From the NCBI GenBank assembly GCA_030731855.1, contig JANQTG010000052.1:13751-57201 (forward strand): a stretch of DNA of 43,451 nt. The letters are read 5' to 3'. The notes beneath the pieces are model-generated. The model saw nothing but the letters and a program-made list of their open reading frames with translations, did no database searches and was not told the DNA's origin. The first letter of the stretch is position 1. Each line of letters opens with the position of its first letter. Positions 26,034 through 33,145 of the stretch are shown one piece after another. The stretch comes from Cellulophaga sp. (GTDB taxonomy: Bacteria; Bacteroidota; Bacteroidia; Flavobacteriales; Flavobacteriaceae). The translations under genes were made by a program, and so were the position numbers.

Positions 26034-27326
26034 TTAAGCCAATAAAAATGCTTTCATTTCGTCATAAGTCGATATTTTAATCGACTTTTTCTTCTTATTC
26101 ATTTGTTTTAAGATCTTTTCAGGAATGTCTATATTTTCTTTGATGGTATCTTCCACCGTATCTAAAAACTTTACAGGATGTGCCGTTTCTAAGAAAATTC
26201 CGTAAGTGTCAGGGTTTTGTTCTTGATATTTTTTTAGACCTAAATATCCAACGGCTCCATGCGGGTCAGCTACATAATTATAATCGTTGTACAATTCTAG
26301 CATCGCTTCTTTGGTTTCTTCATCAGTAAAGGAATAGGAAGATAAATTTTGAGCAAGTTCTTTTATATCGTTGTTATACATATGTCGAATTCTGATAAAA
26401 TTACTCGGGTCACCGACATCCATCGCATTAGAAATAGTGGCGATAGACGGTTTCGGATCGTAAAAGTCTGTCTGCATAAATCTAGGTACTACATCATTTA
26501 CGTTGGTGGATGCAATAAAATGCTTTACAGGCATTCCTAATTGTTGCGCAATCATTCCAGCGCAAATATTTCCAAAGTTCCCACTAGGGATAGAAAAAAC
26601 GATATCTTTCCCTTCTGATTTTGTTGCCTTATAGGCGAATAAAAAGTAAAAAAGTTGCGGCAACCAACGGGCTACATTGATGGAATTTGCTGAGGTTAAT
26701 TGTTTGTTTTTAGTGATTTCTTCGTCTAAAAAAGCTGTTTTTACCATAGTTTGGCAATCGTCAAAAGTACCATCGACTTCTAGAGCGGTAATATTTTTAC
26801 CTAAAGTGGTGAGTTGTTTTTCTTGAATATCACTTACTTTTCCACTCGGGTATAAGATAACGACTTTTACGCCTTCTACCCCTAAAAAACCATTGGCCAC
26901 CGCACCACCAGTATCGCCAGAAGTAGCAACAAGAACGGTTATTTCTTCTGTTTTTTCGAATGAAAAATGGCCTAAGCAACGTGCCATAAAACGGGCGCCA
27001 ACATCTTTAAACGCTAGTGTAGGACCATGAAAAAGTTCTAAAGTTGAAATATTTTTTTGAATCGGAACAATCGGAAAATCAAAATCTAATACTTCGGCAA
27101 TTATTTCTTTTAGCTTTTCGTCGTCTATGTCTTCAGTAACAAATTGACGAATTGCGGTAAAAGCGATATCAAATTTGGATAGACTTTCAATATTCTCAAA
27201 GAAATGTGTTCCTAATGGTGTAATCTTTTCTGGGAAATATAAACCACGATCGGGCGCAATTCCTTTAATAACCGCTTCTTTAAAAGATACTTTAGGTGCT
27301 TGTTTATTTAGACTGTAAAAATTCAT
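26034..27326 (-). CDS. thrC: Threonine synthase
   Basis: 430 residues. The PLP lysine is in LFHGPTLAFKDVGARFMARCL; VATSGDTGGAVANGFLG is the phosphate-binding/substrate loop, and SIPSGNFGNICAGMIAQQLG is the PLP-phosphate motif. The length and N-terminal MNFYSLNKQAPKVSFKEAV are those of the longer, E. coli-type threonine synthase, which converts O-phosphohomoserine to threonine. It is the last gene of the thr operon, 78 nt after the unknown secreted protein and before a strong terminator. Confidence 0.97.
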   Translation of the reverse strand: MNFYSLNKQAPKVSFKEAVIKGIAPDRGLYFPEKITPLGTHFFENIESLSKFDIAFTAIRQFVTEDIDDEKLKEIIAEVLDFDFPIVPIQKNISTLELFHGPTLAFKDVGARFMARCLGHFSFEKTEEITVLVATSGDTGGAVANGFLGVEGVKVVILYPSGKVSDIQEKQLTTLGKNITALEVDGTFDDCQTMVKTAFLDEEITKNKQLTSANSINVARWLPQLFYFLFAYKATKSEGKDIVFSIPSGNFGNICAGMIAQQLGMPVKHFIASTNVNDVVPRFMQTDFYDPKPSIATISNAMDVGDPSNFIRIRHMYNNDIKELAQNLSSYSFTDEETKEAMLELYNDYNYVADPHGAVGYLGLKKYQEQNPDTYGIFLETAHPVKFLDTVEDTIKENIDIPEKILKQMNKKKKSIKISTYDEMKAFLLA

Positions 27327-27404: not shown

Positions 27405-27854
27405 TTAGCAATCATTTATATCATCAAATTCTTCCATTTGTTGTCGATATTCAAAGAAATCTTCTAAAGTGCTTACTCTTTTTAGTTCAATTGATTTTTC
27501 TTCTAAAGTTTCATTTTTTATAAAACCATTTAAACTATTACCTTTTTGTTCCATAAAAATATAATTTTTATATCTGCCACTTTGCCAAGCATCATCAATC
27601 AAAATATAGCCATTATTGTTATTGGCAAAAATTTGAAATTTTCGCCATAAACTTTGATCGTATTCATGGTCTTTATATCGTATGATGCTTTTATAATAAA
27701 TAGCTCCTGTACATTCTTGTTGAAAACTTTGAATGTAAATTTGAATGATTTCGTCGTTTAGAGTGCCTTCAAAAACACTTTCTTTCTTGATTTCTTGAGC
27801 GGTAGCTGCTATAGAAAATAAAAAAGTGATATTAATAATGATGTTCCTTAGCAT
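27405..27854 (-). CDS. Unknown secreted protein inside the threonine operon
   Basis: 149 residues that I do not recognise as a named family. A clear signal peptide (basic start, hydrophobic NIIINITFLFSIA, cleavage near ATAQ) sends it to the periplasm. The mature part alternates short strands with turns: VFEGTLNDEIIQIYI, ECTGAIYYKS, GYILIDDAW, YIFMEQKGNSLNGFI, ending in an acidic tail with a terminal cysteine (DINDC). Repeated strand-G-x-L/I-x-G patterns suggest an all-beta sandwich or barrel. It starts only 2 nt after the thrB stop and precedes thrC by 78 nt, so it is cotranscribed with threonine biosynthesis although nothing in it looks metabolic. It is noticeably A+T-rich, which suggests insertion into an older thrABC operon. 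Confidence 0.8.
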   Translation of the reverse strand: MLRNIIINITFLFSIAATAQEIKKESVFEGTLNDEIIQIYIQSFQQECTGAIYYKSIIRYKDHEYDQSLWRKFQIFANNNNGYILIDDAWQSGRYKNYIFMEQKGNSLNGFIKNETLEEKSIELKRVSTLEDFFEYRQQMEEFDDINDC

Positions 27855-27856
27855 AA

Positions 27857-28780
27857 TTACAATTTTTTTATTCCTTCGGTGTTAATTTTAGAAACATGAA
27901 CATCATAATCGATGCCTATTTTTTCATACACGTCTGTCATAGCTTGTGCTACTTTTCTAGCCATGGCTTCTCCTTTGCTTAGCGCAAAAATGGAGGGTCC
28001 CGAACCTGAAATGCCGCAACCCAAAGCACCTGTTTCTATGGCTTTTTGTTTCACGGCATCAAAACCAGGGATTAAAATAGAACGAATGGGTTCTACAATA
28101 TGATCTTCTAATGAGCGACCAATTAAATCGTAATCTTCGGTAAACAATCCTGCGATTAAGCCGCCAACATTACCCCATTGTTTAATACCGTCTTCTAGGG
28201 AAATAGTAGTTTTTAAAATGCGTCTAGAATCTGATGTTTTTACTTCAATTTGTGGATGAATAACGGTGGCAAACAATTCACTAGGCGTATTAATTTTTAC
28301 AATATCTAAAGGACTATAACTACGTACCAAAGTAAAACCACCAAATAGGGCAGGAGCTACATTATCGGCATGCGCCACACCACTCGCTAAACGTTCACCT
28401 TCCATAGCAAACTTTACGAGTTGTAAGGCTGAAAAAGGTCTTCCAGTTAATTCGTTCATAGCCCAAACAGCGCCAGTAGAACTTGCTGCACTACTGCCAA
28501 TACCACTGCCAGCCTTTATTTTTTTATAGATTTCTATTTCAAATCCGCCTTGGTAATCACTTGCAGCTAAAAATGCCAGTCCGGCAACACCAGCTACATT
28601 CTCTAAGGTTTCAGTGGGTAAATCTTGTCCTGTTAGTTTGGTTATTTTTATACCTTTTTCCTTAGTTTTTCGAACCAACATTTCGTCACCAACGGCATCT
28701 AATGCCAAACCAAGCACATCAAAACCACAGGATACATTGGCTATGGTTGCGGGACAAAAAACTCTAATTTCATTATTCAT
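27857..28780 (-). CDS. thrB: Homoserine kinase
   Basis: 307 residues of the GHMP kinase superfamily. CPATIANVSCGFDVLGLAL at the N-terminus, the ATP loop KAGSGIGSSAASSTGAVWA, and the C-terminal GALGCGISGSGPSIFAL match homoserine kinase, which phosphorylates homoserine for threonine synthase. It lies 103 nt downstream of thrA; the gap contains a small GC-rich structured element. It is followed 2 nt later by the secreted-protein gene. Confidence 0.97.
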   Translation of the reverse strand: MNNEIRVFCPATIANVSCGFDVLGLALDAVGDEMLVRKTKEKGIKITKLTGQDLPTETLENVAGVAGLAFLAASDYQGGFEIEIYKKIKAGSGIGSSAASSTGAVWAMNELTGRPFSALQLVKFAMEGERLASGVAHADNVAPALFGGFTLVRSYSPLDIVKINTPSELFATVIHPQIEVKTSDSRRILKTTISLEDGIKQWGNVGGLIAGLFTEDYDLIGRSLEDHIVEPIRSILIPGFDAVKQKAIETGALGCGISGSGPSIFALSKGEAMARKVAQAMTDVYEKIGIDYDVHVSKINTEGIKKL

Positions 28781-28883: not shown

Positions 28884-31328
28884 TTAAAAATTCCCGATTC
28901 TAATGATATCCGCGAAAATACCAGACGCCGTAACCTCAGCACCCGCACCAGCCCCTTTAATAATCATGGGTTGATTTGGATATCTTTCGGTAAAAAATAA
29001 AACGATGTTATCACTACCTTCTAAATTATAAAAATCATGTCCCTTTGGTATTTCTTGTAAACCAACGCTAGCTTTGCCATCTTCGAATTGCGCTACATAT
29101 TTTAGTTTACAATCTTTTTCAGTGGCGTTTTTGTACATTTTTTGAAAGCTATCTTCATGTTTAATAAGCGACTTGAAAAAATCTTCGTTGTTAGTTGTTT
29201 CTAAGCTTTCTTTAGGTAAAAAAGATTCATTTTCAATCTCGTTTATATCAATTTTATTACCGCTTTCCCGAGCTAAAATTAATATTTTTCGCATCACATC
29301 AATCCCGCTTAAATCTATTTTTGGGTCTGGCTCTGTGTAGCCTTGTACTTGTGCTTCTTTAACAATGTCATGAAAGGTAGTGGTATCCTTAAAATTATTA
29401 AAGACAAAGTTTAAACTACCTGATAATACGGCCTGAATTTTAAGAATTTTATCGCCCGAAGCTATTAAGTTTTTTAAGGTATCAATAATAGGTAAGCCTG
29501 CGCCAACATTGGTTTCAAATAAAAATGGCGCATTGTATTTACGAGCCAAATCTTTTAAATTTTTATAATTATCATAGTCCGACGAGCAGGCTATTTTATT
29601 ACAGGTAACCACCGAAATACTATTTTTTAAATAAAATGCGTAGGTTTCAGAAACATCTGCACTAGCTGTATTATCAACAAAAATGCTATTTCTATAATTT
29701 AGCTTTTTAACCGTATCAAAAAAAGTTTCTTTATTCGCTTGTCCACCTTCGTTTAAAACAGTTTCCCATTTTTTAAGTGAAATTCCGTCTTCATCAAAAG
29801 CCATCGTTCTAGAATTGGAAATTCCAATAACCCGAATATTGAGTTTAAGATTTTCTCTTAGATATTTTTTTTGTTGCTTTATCTGGTTCAAAAACTTGTT
29901 ACCCACATTCCCAACACCCATAACAAACAAGTTAAGTTGTTTTGTATTCTCTTCAAAAAATTCTTCGTGAAGGGTATTTAATGCTTTTTTTACATCGTCT
30001 TTTACAATTACTGCCGATATATTTCGCTCTGAAGCTCCTTGAGCGATAGCCCTGATATTTACATTGTTTTTCCCTAAAGTACTAAACATTTTACCACTTA
30101 GTCCCTGATGATTTTTCATATTGTCGCCAACAAGGGCAATAATCGCTAGGTTTTTTTCGGCAAGGGTAGGTTTAATTTTACCTAAACTAATTTCATATTC
30201 AAAAGCTTCGTTGATAATTTCTACCGCTTTATCGGCATCCGCATCCGCAATTCCAATACAAATAGAATGTTCAGAAGAGGCCTGCGTAATAAGTACAACA
30301 CTTATGGCTGATTGCGATAATACTTCAAAAAAGCGTTTTGAAATACCAGGAATTCCTACCATTCCTGCTCCCTCTAAAGAAAGTAAAGCCATATTTTCTA
30401 CATGACTGATACCTCTTACGGTTCTCCCTTTTTCATTTTTGCTTTTGGTAATTAAAGTACCTACGTTTTCAGCGTCAAATGTATTTTTAATTACAATTGA
30501 AATTCCTTTTGATAGGACTGGTTGTATCGTTGGAGGGTATAGCACTTTAGCGCCAAAATGTGAAAGTTCCATAGCTTCTTCATAAGAAATATGTGGAATT
30601 GCCATGGCTTGTTTTACTAATTTTGGATTTGCAGTGTACATACCACTTACGTCTGTCCATATTTCAAGAACTTCCGCATCTACAGCACTGGCAACAATAG
30701 CAGCGGTATAATCAGATCCGCCACGACCCAGCGTTGTAGAATTTTGGTTTACAGACGAGGCTATAAAACCAGCCATTACTACTATGTTTTCAGAATTATG
30801 ATGAAAATATGTCGCACAGTTTTCGTTCGTAATCGTGAAATTTACAATCGCTTTTCCGAAAGTATCATTTGTTTTTATTAGCTCTCTACTATCTTTATAA
30901 CAAGCATTTAAGTTTTCTACAATAAAGTATTCACTGATGATATAAGAAGATAATAATTCGCCATAACTAACAATTTTATCAGATAGTTTTGGTGTTATTT
31001 CACCTATTAAATAAGCCCCTTCAAGCAAGGTTTCTAAGGTATTTAATTCACTTTTTACCTTACTTAACACTTTACTTTGAGATGCTATCGGTATTAATTC
31101 TTTAATGGCAGAAAGGTGTCTTTCTTCTATTTCTTTAAGTATGGTTTTATAGGCAGCATCTTGGTTTGAAGCCAGATTGGCAGTTTTTAATAGTAAATCG
31201 GTAACACCGCCCAAAGCAGAAACGACTACTATTGTTTTATCAGTTTCAGATTTTGAAACGATATTTTTAACTAAACGTATATTTTGAGCGTTGGCTACAG
31301 ATGTACCACCAAATTTTAGAACTTTCAT
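28884..31328 (-). CDS. thrA: Bifunctional aspartokinase I / homoserine dehydrogenase I
   Basis: 814 residues. The aspartokinase domain opens with KVLKFGGTSVAN and has TLGRGGSDYTAAIVA; regulatory ACT repeats follow (MALLSLEGAGMVGIPGIS, LAIIALVGDNMKNHQGLSG). The homoserine dehydrogenase half starts near residue 465 with LFVMGVGNVGNKF and includes GAGLPIIDTLKNL and YTEPDPKIDLSG. It catalyses the first and third steps of threonine/methionine synthesis from aspartate, and ACT domains usually mediate threonine feedback. It is the first structural gene behind the putative thr attenuator, so it is predicted to be controlled by charged tRNA-Thr as well. Confidence 0.97.
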   Translation of the reverse strand: MKVLKFGGTSVANAQNIRLVKNIVSKSETDKTIVVVSALGGVTDLLLKTANLASNQDAAYKTILKEIEERHLSAIKELIPIASQSKVLSKVKSELNTLETLLEGAYLIGEITPKLSDKIVSYGELLSSYIISEYFIVENLNACYKDSRELIKTNDTFGKAIVNFTITNENCATYFHHNSENIVVMAGFIASSVNQNSTTLGRGGSDYTAAIVASAVDAEVLEIWTDVSGMYTANPKLVKQAMAIPHISYEEAMELSHFGAKVLYPPTIQPVLSKGISIVIKNTFDAENVGTLITKSKNEKGRTVRGISHVENMALLSLEGAGMVGIPGISKRFFEVLSQSAISVVLITQASSEHSICIGIADADADKAVEIINEAFEYEISLGKIKPTLAEKNLAIIALVGDNMKNHQGLSGKMFSTLGKNNVNIRAIAQGASERNISAVIVKDDVKKALNTLHEEFFEENTKQLNLFVMGVGNVGNKFLNQIKQQKKYLRENLKLNIRVIGISNSRTMAFDEDGISLKKWETVLNEGGQANKETFFDTVKKLNYRNSIFVDNTASADVSETYAFYLKNSISVVTCNKIACSSDYDNYKNLKDLARKYNAPFLFETNVGAGLPIIDTLKNLIASGDKILKIQAVLSGSLNFVFNNFKDTTTFHDIVKEAQVQGYTEPDPKIDLSGIDVMRKILILARESGNKIDINEIENESFLPKESLETTNNEDFFKSLIKHEDSFQKMYKNATEKDCKLKYVAQFEDGKASVGLQEIPKGHDFYNLEGSDNIVLFFTERYPNQPMIIKGAGAGAEVTASGIFADIIRIGNF

Positions 31329-31372
31329 TATGGAAAAAATTAAATTGACTATGAGTATTGCATGTAGGATGC

Positions 31373-31463
31373 AAAAAAAGAAGGACGAGTTTATTTATGA
31401 ATTACCCCAAAGGGGTTGTAGTGAAGCTCGTGATTTTTATATCACAAGTTGTAAATAAAACTG
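31373..31463 (-). promoter_or_regulatory. Putative threonine-operon transcription attenuator
   Basis: Within the thrA leader three alternative pairings are visible on the minus strand. Hairpin A: CTTGTGAT (31448-31441) with ATCACGAG (31434-31427), 8 bp including one G-U. Terminator-like: ACGAG (31431-31427) with CTCGT (31389-31385), followed by CCTTC and seven T (31379-31373). Long-range: AGTTTTATTTA (31462-31452) with TAAATAAACT (31397-31388), one bulge. The first and second share an arm, and the second and third share C31389/T31388, so they exclude each other. A ribosome stalled at Thr codons 22-24 of the leader peptide (31422-31414) would cover ACGAG and prevent the terminator. Energies were not computed. 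Confidence 0.65.
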
Positions 31464-31485
31464 TAAAATTTTGTGTATTGCCCAT
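31402..31485 (-). CDS. thrL: Threonine-rich leader peptide (thrL-like)
   Basis: A 27-codon frame starting ATG at 31485 and ending TAA at 31404-31402, located 74 nt before thrA. Eight codons are Thr (ACA, ACA, ACA, ACT, ACG, ACT, ACA, ACC) and two are Ile (ATA, ATC). The clustered parts read FTTCDIKITS (codons 11-20) and FTTTPLG (21-27). Thr is 30 percent of the peptide, far above chance. It starts about 25 nt after the predicted transcription start and overlaps the attenuator hairpins. Thr plus Ile is the composition of the E. coli thr leader peptide, as expected where threonine is the precursor of isoleucine. The peptide itself probably has no function beyond being translated. Confidence 0.78.
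   Translation of the reverse strand: MGNTQNFTVLFTTCDIKITSFTTTPLG
31404..31416. repeat. ACCCC-AAA-GGGGT palindrome in the thr leader
   Basis: A 5-bp stem with a 3-nt loop that overlaps the last codons of the leader peptide and the T of its stop codon. It belongs to the same small C/G palindrome type as 16757 and 25987, but here it sits inside the loop of the putative terminator. Confidence 0.5.
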
Positions 31486-31516
31486 TTTGATTCTTTATAT
31501 CTTTATAAGATATAGC

Positions 31517-31547
31517 CAAATGTAGTATTTTTGATTTCCTAATCAAA
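31517..31547 (-). promoter_or_regulatory. Promoter of the threonine operon
   Basis: Minus strand TTTG (31547-31544), a 19-nt spacer and TACATTTG (31524-31517), both exact matches to the Bacteroidota consensus. It gives a leader of about 180 nt before thrA, long enough for the leader peptide and attenuator. Confidence 0.75.
31526..31533 (+). promoter_or_regulatory. -7 box of the NAD(P)HX repair gene
   Basis: TATTTTTG matches TAnnTTTG and lies 1 bp from the oppositely oriented thr operon -7 box. No -33 TTTG is seen at normal spacing. The leader would be about 65 nt. Confidence 0.4.
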
Positions 31548-31600
31548 TGATTTCAGAAATTTTTACGATATCATCAAATAATCTTAAATATTTTTATTGA

Positions 31601-33145
31601 ATGAAGATTTTTACTACCCAACAAATTTATGATGCTGATAAATTAACCATCGAAAATCAGCAAATAGCCAGTCATGAATTAATGGAGCGAGCCGCTATTC
31701 AAATATTTAATTGGCTGCATCTGCGTTTGCAAGGTACCCCTGTTAAAATTCACCTTTTTTGTGGTATTGGTAATAATGGTGGTGATGGTATTTCTCTTGC
31801 GCGACATTTAAAAGATCATGGCTATAGCATAGAAGTACATGTAGTGAATTACAGCGACAAAAGATCTGAAGATTTTCTATTGAATTTAAGTCGCTTAAAA
31901 GAACGAAAAATTTGGCCTAATTATATTAATTCGGCAACAGTTTTACCTGATATAAATAGTCAAGATATTGTGATTGATGCCATTTTTGGAATTGGCTTAA
32001 ATCGAGATCCTGATAACTGGGTTATAGCGCTTATAAAACATCTAAATGCCTCAAAAGCATTTGTTTTGTCTGTTGATATTCCTTCTGGTTTGTTTACAGA
32101 TAAGGGAATCAACAACCAAGAAGCTGTAATTAATGCTAGTTATGTTTTAAGTTTTCAAACTCCGAAGTTGGTATTTTTTCTTCCAGAAACTGGAGTATTT
32201 GTGAAGCAATGGGAAGTTTTAGATATTGGGATTGATCCTGAATATTTAATAAAAACAGAATCGGAGTTTGAACTAATCGGTAAAAATGAAGTTTTACCCA
32301 TTTACATACCTCGTGAAAAATTTTCACATAAAGGAACGTATGGCCATTCTTTGATAATAGGCGGTAGTTATGGTAAAATAGGTGCCGTTCAATTAACTTC
32401 AAGAGCCTGTTTGGCTGCTGGAAGTGGCTTGGTAACGGCATTAGTGCCTAAGTGCGGTTACATTCCTTTGCAAACCGCCTTGCCTGAAATTATGGTATTG
32501 ACAAGCAATAGTGAAGAACTAATTTCTGATATAGATTTCAATTTTACACCTACTGTTATTGGAATAGGTATTGGTTTAGGCACTTCAAAAGAAGTTAAAA
32601 AGGCTTTTTCGAGTTTTTTAGGTACTAATAGCGTACAATTAGTAATTGATGCAGACGGCCTAAATTTACTTTCAGAAACTAAAAGTTTATTAAAACAAAT
32701 GCCTCCAAAATCGGTTTTAACGCCACACCCAAAAGAGTTAGAGCGCTTGATTGGTACTTGGAAAGATGATTTTGAAAAACTTAAAAAAGCAAAAGAGTTT
32801 TCCGCCAAATACGATTGTATTTTGGTGCTAAAGGGCGCTAATACCATCACAATTTATCAAAATAAAGGATTTATAAATACCACAGGAAACCCAGGAATGG
32901 CTACTGCTGGTAGTGGCGATGTTTTAACAGGTATTATAACCGGACTTATAGCTCAGGGTTATGACACCTTAAAGGCGGCAGTTTTCGGAGTTTATTTACA
33001 TGGTAGTGCAGGTGATATAGCACTAGAAAGCTACGGATATCAAGCACTAAATGCTTCGGCAATAATTGATGCTTTGGGCTATGCTTATATAGATTTGTTT
33101 AAAAGGCCTGAAGCCACTGAAGCAGAAGAAAATAAGGGAACTTAA
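31601..33145 (+). CDS. nnrD: Bifunctional NAD(P)H-hydrate epimerase / ADP-dependent NAD(P)H-hydrate dehydratase
   Basis: 514 residues fusing both halves of the NAD(P)HX repair system. The N-terminal YjeF_N epimerase (about 1-215) has FCGIGNNGGDGISLARHL and VDIPSGLF. The C-terminal ribokinase-like dehydratase (about 225-505) has HKGTYGHSLIIGGSYGKIGA, LTPHPKELERL, and NPGMATAGSGDVLTGIITGLI. The protein repairs hydrated NADH and NADPH. It is divergent from the thr operon, with overlapping promoter regions, and converges on the STAS-like gene (33 bp between stops). No link to threonine is implied. Confidence 0.96.
   Translation: MKIFTTQQIYDADKLTIENQQIASHELMERAAIQIFNWLHLRLQGTPVKIHLFCGIGNNGGDGISLARHLKDHGYSIEVHVVNYSDKRSEDFLLNLSRLKERKIWPNYINSATVLPDINSQDIVIDAIFGIGLNRDPDNWVIALIKHLNASKAFVLSVDIPSGLFTDKGINNQEAVINASYVLSFQTPKLVFFLPETGVFVKQWEVLDIGIDPEYLIKTESEFELIGKNEVLPIYIPREKFSHKGTYGHSLIIGGSYGKIGAVQLTSRACLAAGSGLVTALVPKCGYIPLQTALPEIMVLTSNSEELISDIDFNFTPTVIGIGIGLGTSKEVKKAFSSFLGTNSVQLVIDADGLNLLSETKSLLKQMPPKSVLTPHPKELERLIGTWKDDFEKLKKAKEFSAKYDCILVLKGANTITIYQNKGFINTTGNPGMATAGSGDVLTGIITGLIAQGYDTLKAAVFGVYLHGSAGDIALESYGYQALNASAIIDALGYAYIDLFKRPEATEAEENKGT

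Follow-up and report, generated by a model that had tools for sequence, protein, structure and literature searches.

The thrA-thrB-thrC operon of this Cellulophaga sp. is probably controlled by a threonine-sensing leader-peptide attenuator that is conserved in the Flavobacteriaceae and appears to lack a canonical intrinsic terminator, a reading to which we give a probability of about 72%. Family conservation and genomic context strongly support the existence of a leader peptide with Thr codons ahead of the operon, and sensing through those codons, judged from the frame and its conservation, is very probable. The textbook model of amino-acid attenuation rests on intrinsic terminators. If the reading is correct, a deeply conserved thr attenuator would have kept its sensing codons and structured RNA without a terminator, in a phylum without strong Shine-Dalgarno use. 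Below, the window means the whole stretch of 43,451 nt that was analysed, and positions refer to it unless another locus is named.

The thr locus and its promoter

The operon and its promoter lie on the minus strand, with the following features.

28884..31328, minus strand: thrA, bifunctional aspartate kinase/homoserine dehydrogenase I (NF006959, 1052.6 bits; cut-off 726)
27857..28780, minus strand: thrB, homoserine kinase (TIGR00191 and NF002288, both above cut-off)
26034..27326, minus strand: thrC, threonine synthase (TIGR00260, 283.3 bits; cut-off 167.1)
31517..31547, minus strand: promoter, read from the sequence, with a -33 box TTTG (31547-31544), a 19-nt spacer and a -7 box TACATTTG (31524-31517)
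31496..31514, minus strand: AU-rich 8-bp hairpin of the 5′ UTR, UAUAUCUU/AAGAUAUA, from the sequence and the minimum-energy fold

Read 5′ to 3′ on the minus strand, the order is promoter, short 5′ UTR, leader frame, a 73-nt gap and the thrA start at 31328, while the divergent neighbour on the opposite strand is, by NCBIfam naming, an NAD(P)H-hydrate repair enzyme. The TTTG of the -33 box we take to be of the Bacteroidota type. From the -7 box to the leader start there are 31 nt in the window, against a median of 17 nt among 146 distinct leaders, and because of this difference in spacing the extra hairpin at 31514-31496, together with the longer 5′ UTR, may be particular to the window’s genome. 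Among named ThrA proteins, the closest come from Arenibacter and Maribacter, both members of the Flavobacteriaceae, and reach 83% identity.

Two further observations concern the surrounding genes. Between thrB and thrC lies a 149-aa frame without an NCBIfam match (27405-27854, minus strand). The same genome also carries a second aspartate kinase/homoserine dehydrogenase-like gene (G000:C235:35046-37442), which is 37% identical and has a longer frame of 1139 aa, and copies similar to this second gene occur in other Flavobacteriaceae genomes as well.

A threonine-rich leader frame

Between the promoter and thrA, the leader comprises the following elements.

31402..31485, minus strand: thrL-like leader peptide frame of 27 codons, MGNTQNFTVLFTTCDIKITSFTTTPLG followed by a stop, from the sequence and family conservation
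31422-31414, minus strand: Thr codons 22-24 (ACT ACA ACC), the likely sensing codons, from the sequence and the Thr enrichment before H2
31427..31448, minus strand: H1, an 8-bp hairpin inside the frame, CUUGUGAU-AUAAAA-AUCACGAG (arms 31448-31441 and 31434-31427), from the minimum-energy fold
31404..31416, minus strand: H2, a hairpin A CCCC UUU GGGG U overlapping the final codons and the stop codon's first base, from conservation and folding
31375..31401, minus strand: single-stranded linker, carrying YAYAT...UCCGU in relatives and a degenerate form in the window (CATAAATAAACTCGTCC)
31373..31379, minus strand: T7 tract (TTTTTTT) before H3, from the sequence, proposed earlier as a terminator tail and with no above-chance stem directly before it
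31358..31374, minus strand: H3, a hairpin UUGCAU-CCUAC-AUGCAA, from the sequence, its inner four pairs being in the minimum-energy fold

The initial annotation had described a 27-codon frame at 31485-31402 with 8 Thr and 2 Ile codons, three of the Thr codons being consecutive (22-24), and all of this is present in the sequence. Eight Thr among the 26 residues after the Met correspond to a binomial p of 5.3e-5 if a Thr frequency of 5.5% is assumed, and the exact word ACCCCTTTGGGGTAA was found once in the genome, namely at the thr leader. A short frame rich in codons for the product of the operon, placed between the promoter and the first gene, is what an attenuator is expected to have.

Conservation of the frame was assessed in 190 Flavobacteriaceae thrA upstream regions, made up of 80 named loci and 110 regions drawn from the 196 genomes with a ThrA match (199 searched; the other 86 matching genomes were left out); the 190 represent 178 distinct upstream strings, as some named loci duplicate the same genomes. 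A promoter and H2 were found together in 168 of the 190, where we required a CCC..GGGT-type hairpin between -180 and -45 and a -7-like box ahead of it. The 22 regions in which the H2 pattern or the promoter was not in range were dropped, and as some of them hold altered or displaced forms when read by eye (L024, L025, L037, L151), the figure of 168 is a lower count. The retained regions, whose sequences are related, were split by order of ThrA similarity, not by a tree, into sets A (96), B (56) and C (16).

A short frame ending in or just after H2 was present in 165 of the 168 regions. The 146 distinct peptides that these frames encode consist of Thr for 21.7% of their residues, with a mean of 6.6 Thr each and at least four in 141 of them, compared with 5.5% and 2.5% when the two alternative frames are read and 7.5% when the nucleotides are shuffled. 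Across the six positions that precede H2 (-1 to -6), Thr accounts for 23-67% of residues, and each of them uses all four Thr codons, which argues for selection on decoding by tRNA-Thr and not on the DNA letters alone. An ACC at the base of H2, seen in 144 of the 146 leaders, is imposed by the hairpin. Ile is weakly enriched among the same peptides, at 10.8% against 9.1% after nucleotide shuffling, so that of the threonine/isoleucine sensing originally suggested the Thr part is very probable and the Ile part is weakly supported. The stop codons of the 146 frames are TAA in 107 and TAG in 39, with TGA in none, and the absence of TGA may be explained in part by the sequence of H2.

Conserved RNA structure around the stop codon

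The leader RNA of the window folds better than its dinucleotide shuffles (z -2.73), with 3 of 200 shuffles equally good. In the relatives, sliding 28-nt folds were compared with shuffles (8 each) over 84, 56 and 16 distinct sequences of sets A, B and C, respectively. The most conserved element of the leader proved to be H2, which is absent from the initial annotation. Of 176 distinct upstream regions, 157 contain its pattern, whereas dinucleotide shuffles would give 5.1, and 2 of 189 windows taken further upstream as controls have it. Its folding exceeds that of shuffles in all three sets (t -15.7, -12.1 and -7.5 in A, B and C). The C-terminal residues encoded over H2 vary with the reading frame (TPLG in 64 of the 146 peptides, LWGC in 17, PFGV in 5, TTTP in 4, and others including ITTR) while the pairing stays, which indicates that it is the RNA hairpin that is conserved and not one peptide end.

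The 8-bp hairpin H1, already recognised in the initial annotation, is present in the sequence and also in the minimum-energy fold, and hairpins in its vicinity fold better than shuffles in sets A (t -6.5, 84 sequences) and B (t -8.1, 56) and weakly so in set C (t -2.8, 16). In each of the three sets, the RNA directly after H2 folds less than its shuffles do, and the linker found there carries conserved words: YAYAT in 128 of 156 sequences (44.9 in shuffles), usually starting 7 nt after H2 (79), YAYAT..TCC in 78 of 156 (6.1 when shuffled), and CCGT in 69 of 156 (7.8 when shuffled). Scanning the window's genome with a pattern made of H2 and the linker gave 0 hits, which is uninformative because the linker at the thr leader itself does not match that pattern.

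H3 sits 18-30 nt beyond H2 and beats shuffles in sets A, B and C (t -9.6, -13.7 and -3.1), and from H3 to the thrA start folding is at or below the shuffle level. The support for H3 comes from this shuffle test and from a list of arms selected for being paired, and hence is no independent test of covariation; moreover, 15 of the 68 distinct H3 picks in set A fall outside the expected place. RNAalifold yielded H2 alone from the whole set-A alignment, and MAFFT left H3 out of register when H2, linker and H3 were aligned. At H1, H2 and H3, comparison with shuffles points to conserved RNA structure coupled to the leader frame, as an attenuator would have.

The question of a terminator

In the initial annotation, the attenuator was completed by a terminator consisting of ACGAG (31431-31427) paired with CTCGT (31389-31385) and followed by TTTTTTT (31379-31373), all on the minus strand. 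These sequences are in the window, where ACGAG doubles as part of one arm of H1, but their pairing exists as complementarity only and is not the best frame-linker helix even within the window. A terminator-scanning tool gave 0 sites in 31250-31650. A second scan, of our own, looked for a stem of at least 5 bp with a T-rich tail; as positive controls, it found strong terminators in the trp and his leaders of the genome and in four thr upstream regions from other families (L207, L212, L217, L213).

Among 156 distinct relatives, our scan detected terminator-like sites in 18, against 4.2 from shuffles, with 14 at H2, 1 at H3 and 3 elsewhere. In those 14, H2 is the stem and the stop codon with the AU-rich RNA behind it makes up the tail, and H2 may conceivably serve as a weak terminator in some species. 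Since 31 of the 119 in-place H3 stems have four pairs and the scan needs five, the U tails of H3 were counted directly; they follow 15 of the 119 in-place hairpins (12.6%), which is below the 18.3% for all 8-mers of the region. A GC-rich stem with a U tract, the classical arrangement, was not found between the leader frame and the first gene, and a canonical intrinsic terminator is probably lacking from the thr leader. Of the attenuator as originally described, the Thr-codon leader is thus sustained by conservation and context, whereas the terminator half finds no support in the scans or in the H3 tails, which fall below background.

A proposed mechanism and its rivals

When charged tRNA-Thr is short, the ribosome would stall at the Thr codons that lie within the 5′ arm of H2 or immediately before it and would hold that hairpin open, and transcription would proceed into thrA. 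When threonine is plentiful, the ribosome would reach the stop codon and depart, H2 would close, and the linker together with 70-80 nt of C-rich, G-poor untranslated RNA would be exposed. Most transcripts would then end before or early in thrA. As to the terminating step, the most likely option is that it depends on Rho, at rather less than even odds, the alternatives being that H3 acts as a tailless terminator or that control falls on mRNA decay or on translation.

A loading stretch for Rho would look C-rich and G-poor. After H2, the ratio of C to G is 2.58, whereas 115 control stretches taken from upstream of other genes give 1.14, and the RNA after H2 is untranslated and, apart from H3, little folded. 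The excess of C over G is no more than moderately rare: when each region is ranked among the windows on the same strand of its own locus, the median region falls in the top 5.6%, and 35 of 75 regions lie below 5%. This excess covers the whole leader, not its end alone. The tract fits Rho loading, as a moderate and not a specific signal, and it is for this reason that a Rho-dependent stop is favoured no more strongly. Leader-frame control of Rho termination is known in enterobacteria for mgtA, corA and tna, where, as in the mechanism favoured here, a short frame decides the access of Rho to bare RNA, without homology to the thr leader. A further enterobacterial example, topAI, is given in PMC12121999. 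If our reading is correct, the way in which ribosome position is read out in Bacteroidota, by Rho or by a tailless hairpin, becomes testable, and about 150 distinct natural variants provide a resource for this, for which the genome's own his and trp attenuators, both of the textbook kind, can serve as internal controls.

Other readings of the leader have been weighed against this one. In a classical attenuator, ACGAG/CTCGT would form a long-loop stem that acts with TTTTTTT as an intrinsic terminator, its 5′ arm being masked by the stalled ribosome. Apart from the presence of both the complementarity and the T7 tract in the window, such a device could draw on P2, in which the early frame (often ACGGAC) pairs with GUCCGU of the linker and which in set A scores slightly above permuted partners (12.15 against 11.65; 10 of 500 as good, n=78), and on 7-8 pairs followed by Ts in some relatives (L002, L015). 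However, leader-linker helices stay near the shuffle level over 160 relatives, the best helix scoring 14.25 against 13.56 for dinucleotide shuffles in set A (95) and 14.12 against 14.05 in the rest (65), and an early CGGAC/T is not significantly associated with a late TCCG (both in 19 regions, one or the other in 7 and 31, neither in 21; p 0.32). With the terminator scan of the window empty as well, a classical attenuator is distinctly improbable. Somewhat less so, though still unlikely, is a tailless terminator at H3 that would need NusA or NusG and would be opened or closed according to the position of the ribosome, with the last codons in set B pairing with the H3 5′ arm in an antiterminator-like swap. 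The place and pairing of H3 are kept despite changes in sequence (GCGU/ACGC, GCCU/AGGC, GUGUU/AACAC, UGUAAUUU/AAAUUACA), and in one leader of family f8 (L215) the position of H3 is taken by AGGC UUUU GCCU UUUUUU. The final codons (AUU ACA AC; x) pair in set B with the H3 5′ arm (UUGUAAU) at a score of 11.12, compared with 8.50 when arms are shuffled and 10.60 when partners are permuted (5 of 300 permutations as good, n=52), but when x is paired with the H3 3′ arm as a control, 2 of 300 permutations are as good in the same set, which implies that relatedness inflates the permutation test. The pairing of x with the 5′ arm is, moreover, not seen in set A (190/300) or set C (224/300), and Us after H3 are no commoner than background. 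A third candidate pairing, P3, between GGGG of H2 and UUCC of the linker, was suggested by RNAalifold in three sets (with the CCCC arm omitted) and was rejected, being no better than permutation or shuffling; among the alternative pairings tested, none holds across all sets.

It is also conceivable, and about as unlikely as a tailless terminator, that control is post-transcriptional, with the stalled ribosome altering either the decay of the leader, for which the AU-rich linker between hairpins would be an RNase site, or the translation of thrA. The linker is AU-rich and unstructured and has hairpins on both sides, and translational control is known for the Bacteroides tetracycline element CTnDOT, going by a title cited in PMC12121999, but up to the thrA start (offsets +36 to +54) there is no excess of folding over shuffles, so the start codon is seemingly not hidden. 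Least likely is that a conserved peptide end arrests the ribosome through the nascent chain, the Thr codons being incidental: TPLG is indeed the commonest ending, yet the endings change with the frame over H2 and the Thr before them stays. The threonine-sensing attenuator without a canonical terminator remains our preferred reading.

Relation to known leaders and to other families

The thr attenuator of enterobacteria (RF00506, Thr_leader) shares with the window a Thr-codon leader frame directly before thrA and the same operon logic, but the leader of the window is probably without the intrinsic terminator, and in its place are one hairpin that extends over the stop codon and another of 8 bp inside the frame. 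RF00506 gave no match to the window at its gathering score or at E up to 5, and none at E up to 0.5 in five other leaders (L015, L050, L029, L197, L215); three leaders of family f3, another family of the same class, were matched below the gathering score of 55 (L217 at 36.5, L207 at 36.0 and L212 at 31.7 bits). Bacteroid-trp (RF01692) is likewise an amino-acid leader-peptide attenuator and belongs to the same phylum, but its codons are for Trp, and its terminator, of a kind absent from the thr leader, has an 11-bp stem and a T-rich tail. RF01692 had no match at the thr leader, its sole match in the genome being the trp leader.

The leaders of the genome’s own trp and his operons are of the textbook kind. 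That of the trp operon (L193, 449-590, MKNLTVNTWWWNTLRQKP) reaches 44.7 bits with RF01692, for which the gathering score is 49, and has a strong terminator beyond the end of the Rfam model. That of the his operon (L235, near RF00514, His_leader) resembles the thr leader in encoding a leader peptide, MKNNTTHHHHFCTGFQAR, before hisG, and differs from it in having a 12-bp terminator stem with a TATTTTTGGC tail; located upstream of hisG on the minus strand of its locus (2323-2207), it is a textbook his attenuator that RF00514 matches weakly (29.1 bits, E 0.3). Upstream of ilvD, at one locus, no branched-chain leader was seen.

Full-text searches of one library of papers found no description of a thr leader in Bacteroidota, and a comparative study of attenuation from 2010, by Lopatovskaya and colleagues and cited in PMC4833913, may cover the phylum. 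In the same family, leader-peptide attenuation has been proposed upstream of amino-acid operons of Flavobacterium psychrophilum (PMC9723704), where the section concerned names elements of pheA and hisG, not of thr, and the supplement of that paper may list a thr leader. Novelty is claimed here for the build of the thr leader and not for attenuation in Bacteroidota as such. Just short of an even chance, in our estimate from the sequences compared, is that the Flavobacteriaceae and some related families possess a distinct build of thr attenuator, in which a Thr frame with its stop in or beside a hairpin is joined to a bare conserved linker and a tailless hairpin and the stop is brought about by Rho or another factor. 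The thr terminator would then have been lost or replaced within the phylum, while the his and trp leaders of the same genome keep a textbook intrinsic terminator.

From other families, 40 thrA upstream regions were read by ORF list and by eye; they were chosen among the 132 genomes that gave a match out of 138. Eight of them (L194-L198, L200-L202) have a Thr-rich frame and a CCC/GGG hairpin, and three from family f8 (L206, L210, L215) have at the H2 place an inverted hairpin, ACGGG/CCCGU, whose loop holds the stop codon. No Thr leader of such kinds was seen in 26 of the 40, one of which, L213, combines a terminator with a frame containing 3 Thr. The remaining three (L207, L212, L217) combine a Thr-rich frame with an ordinary terminator, and since leaders of both types are found in these families, classical and window-type thr leaders coexist within the phylum.
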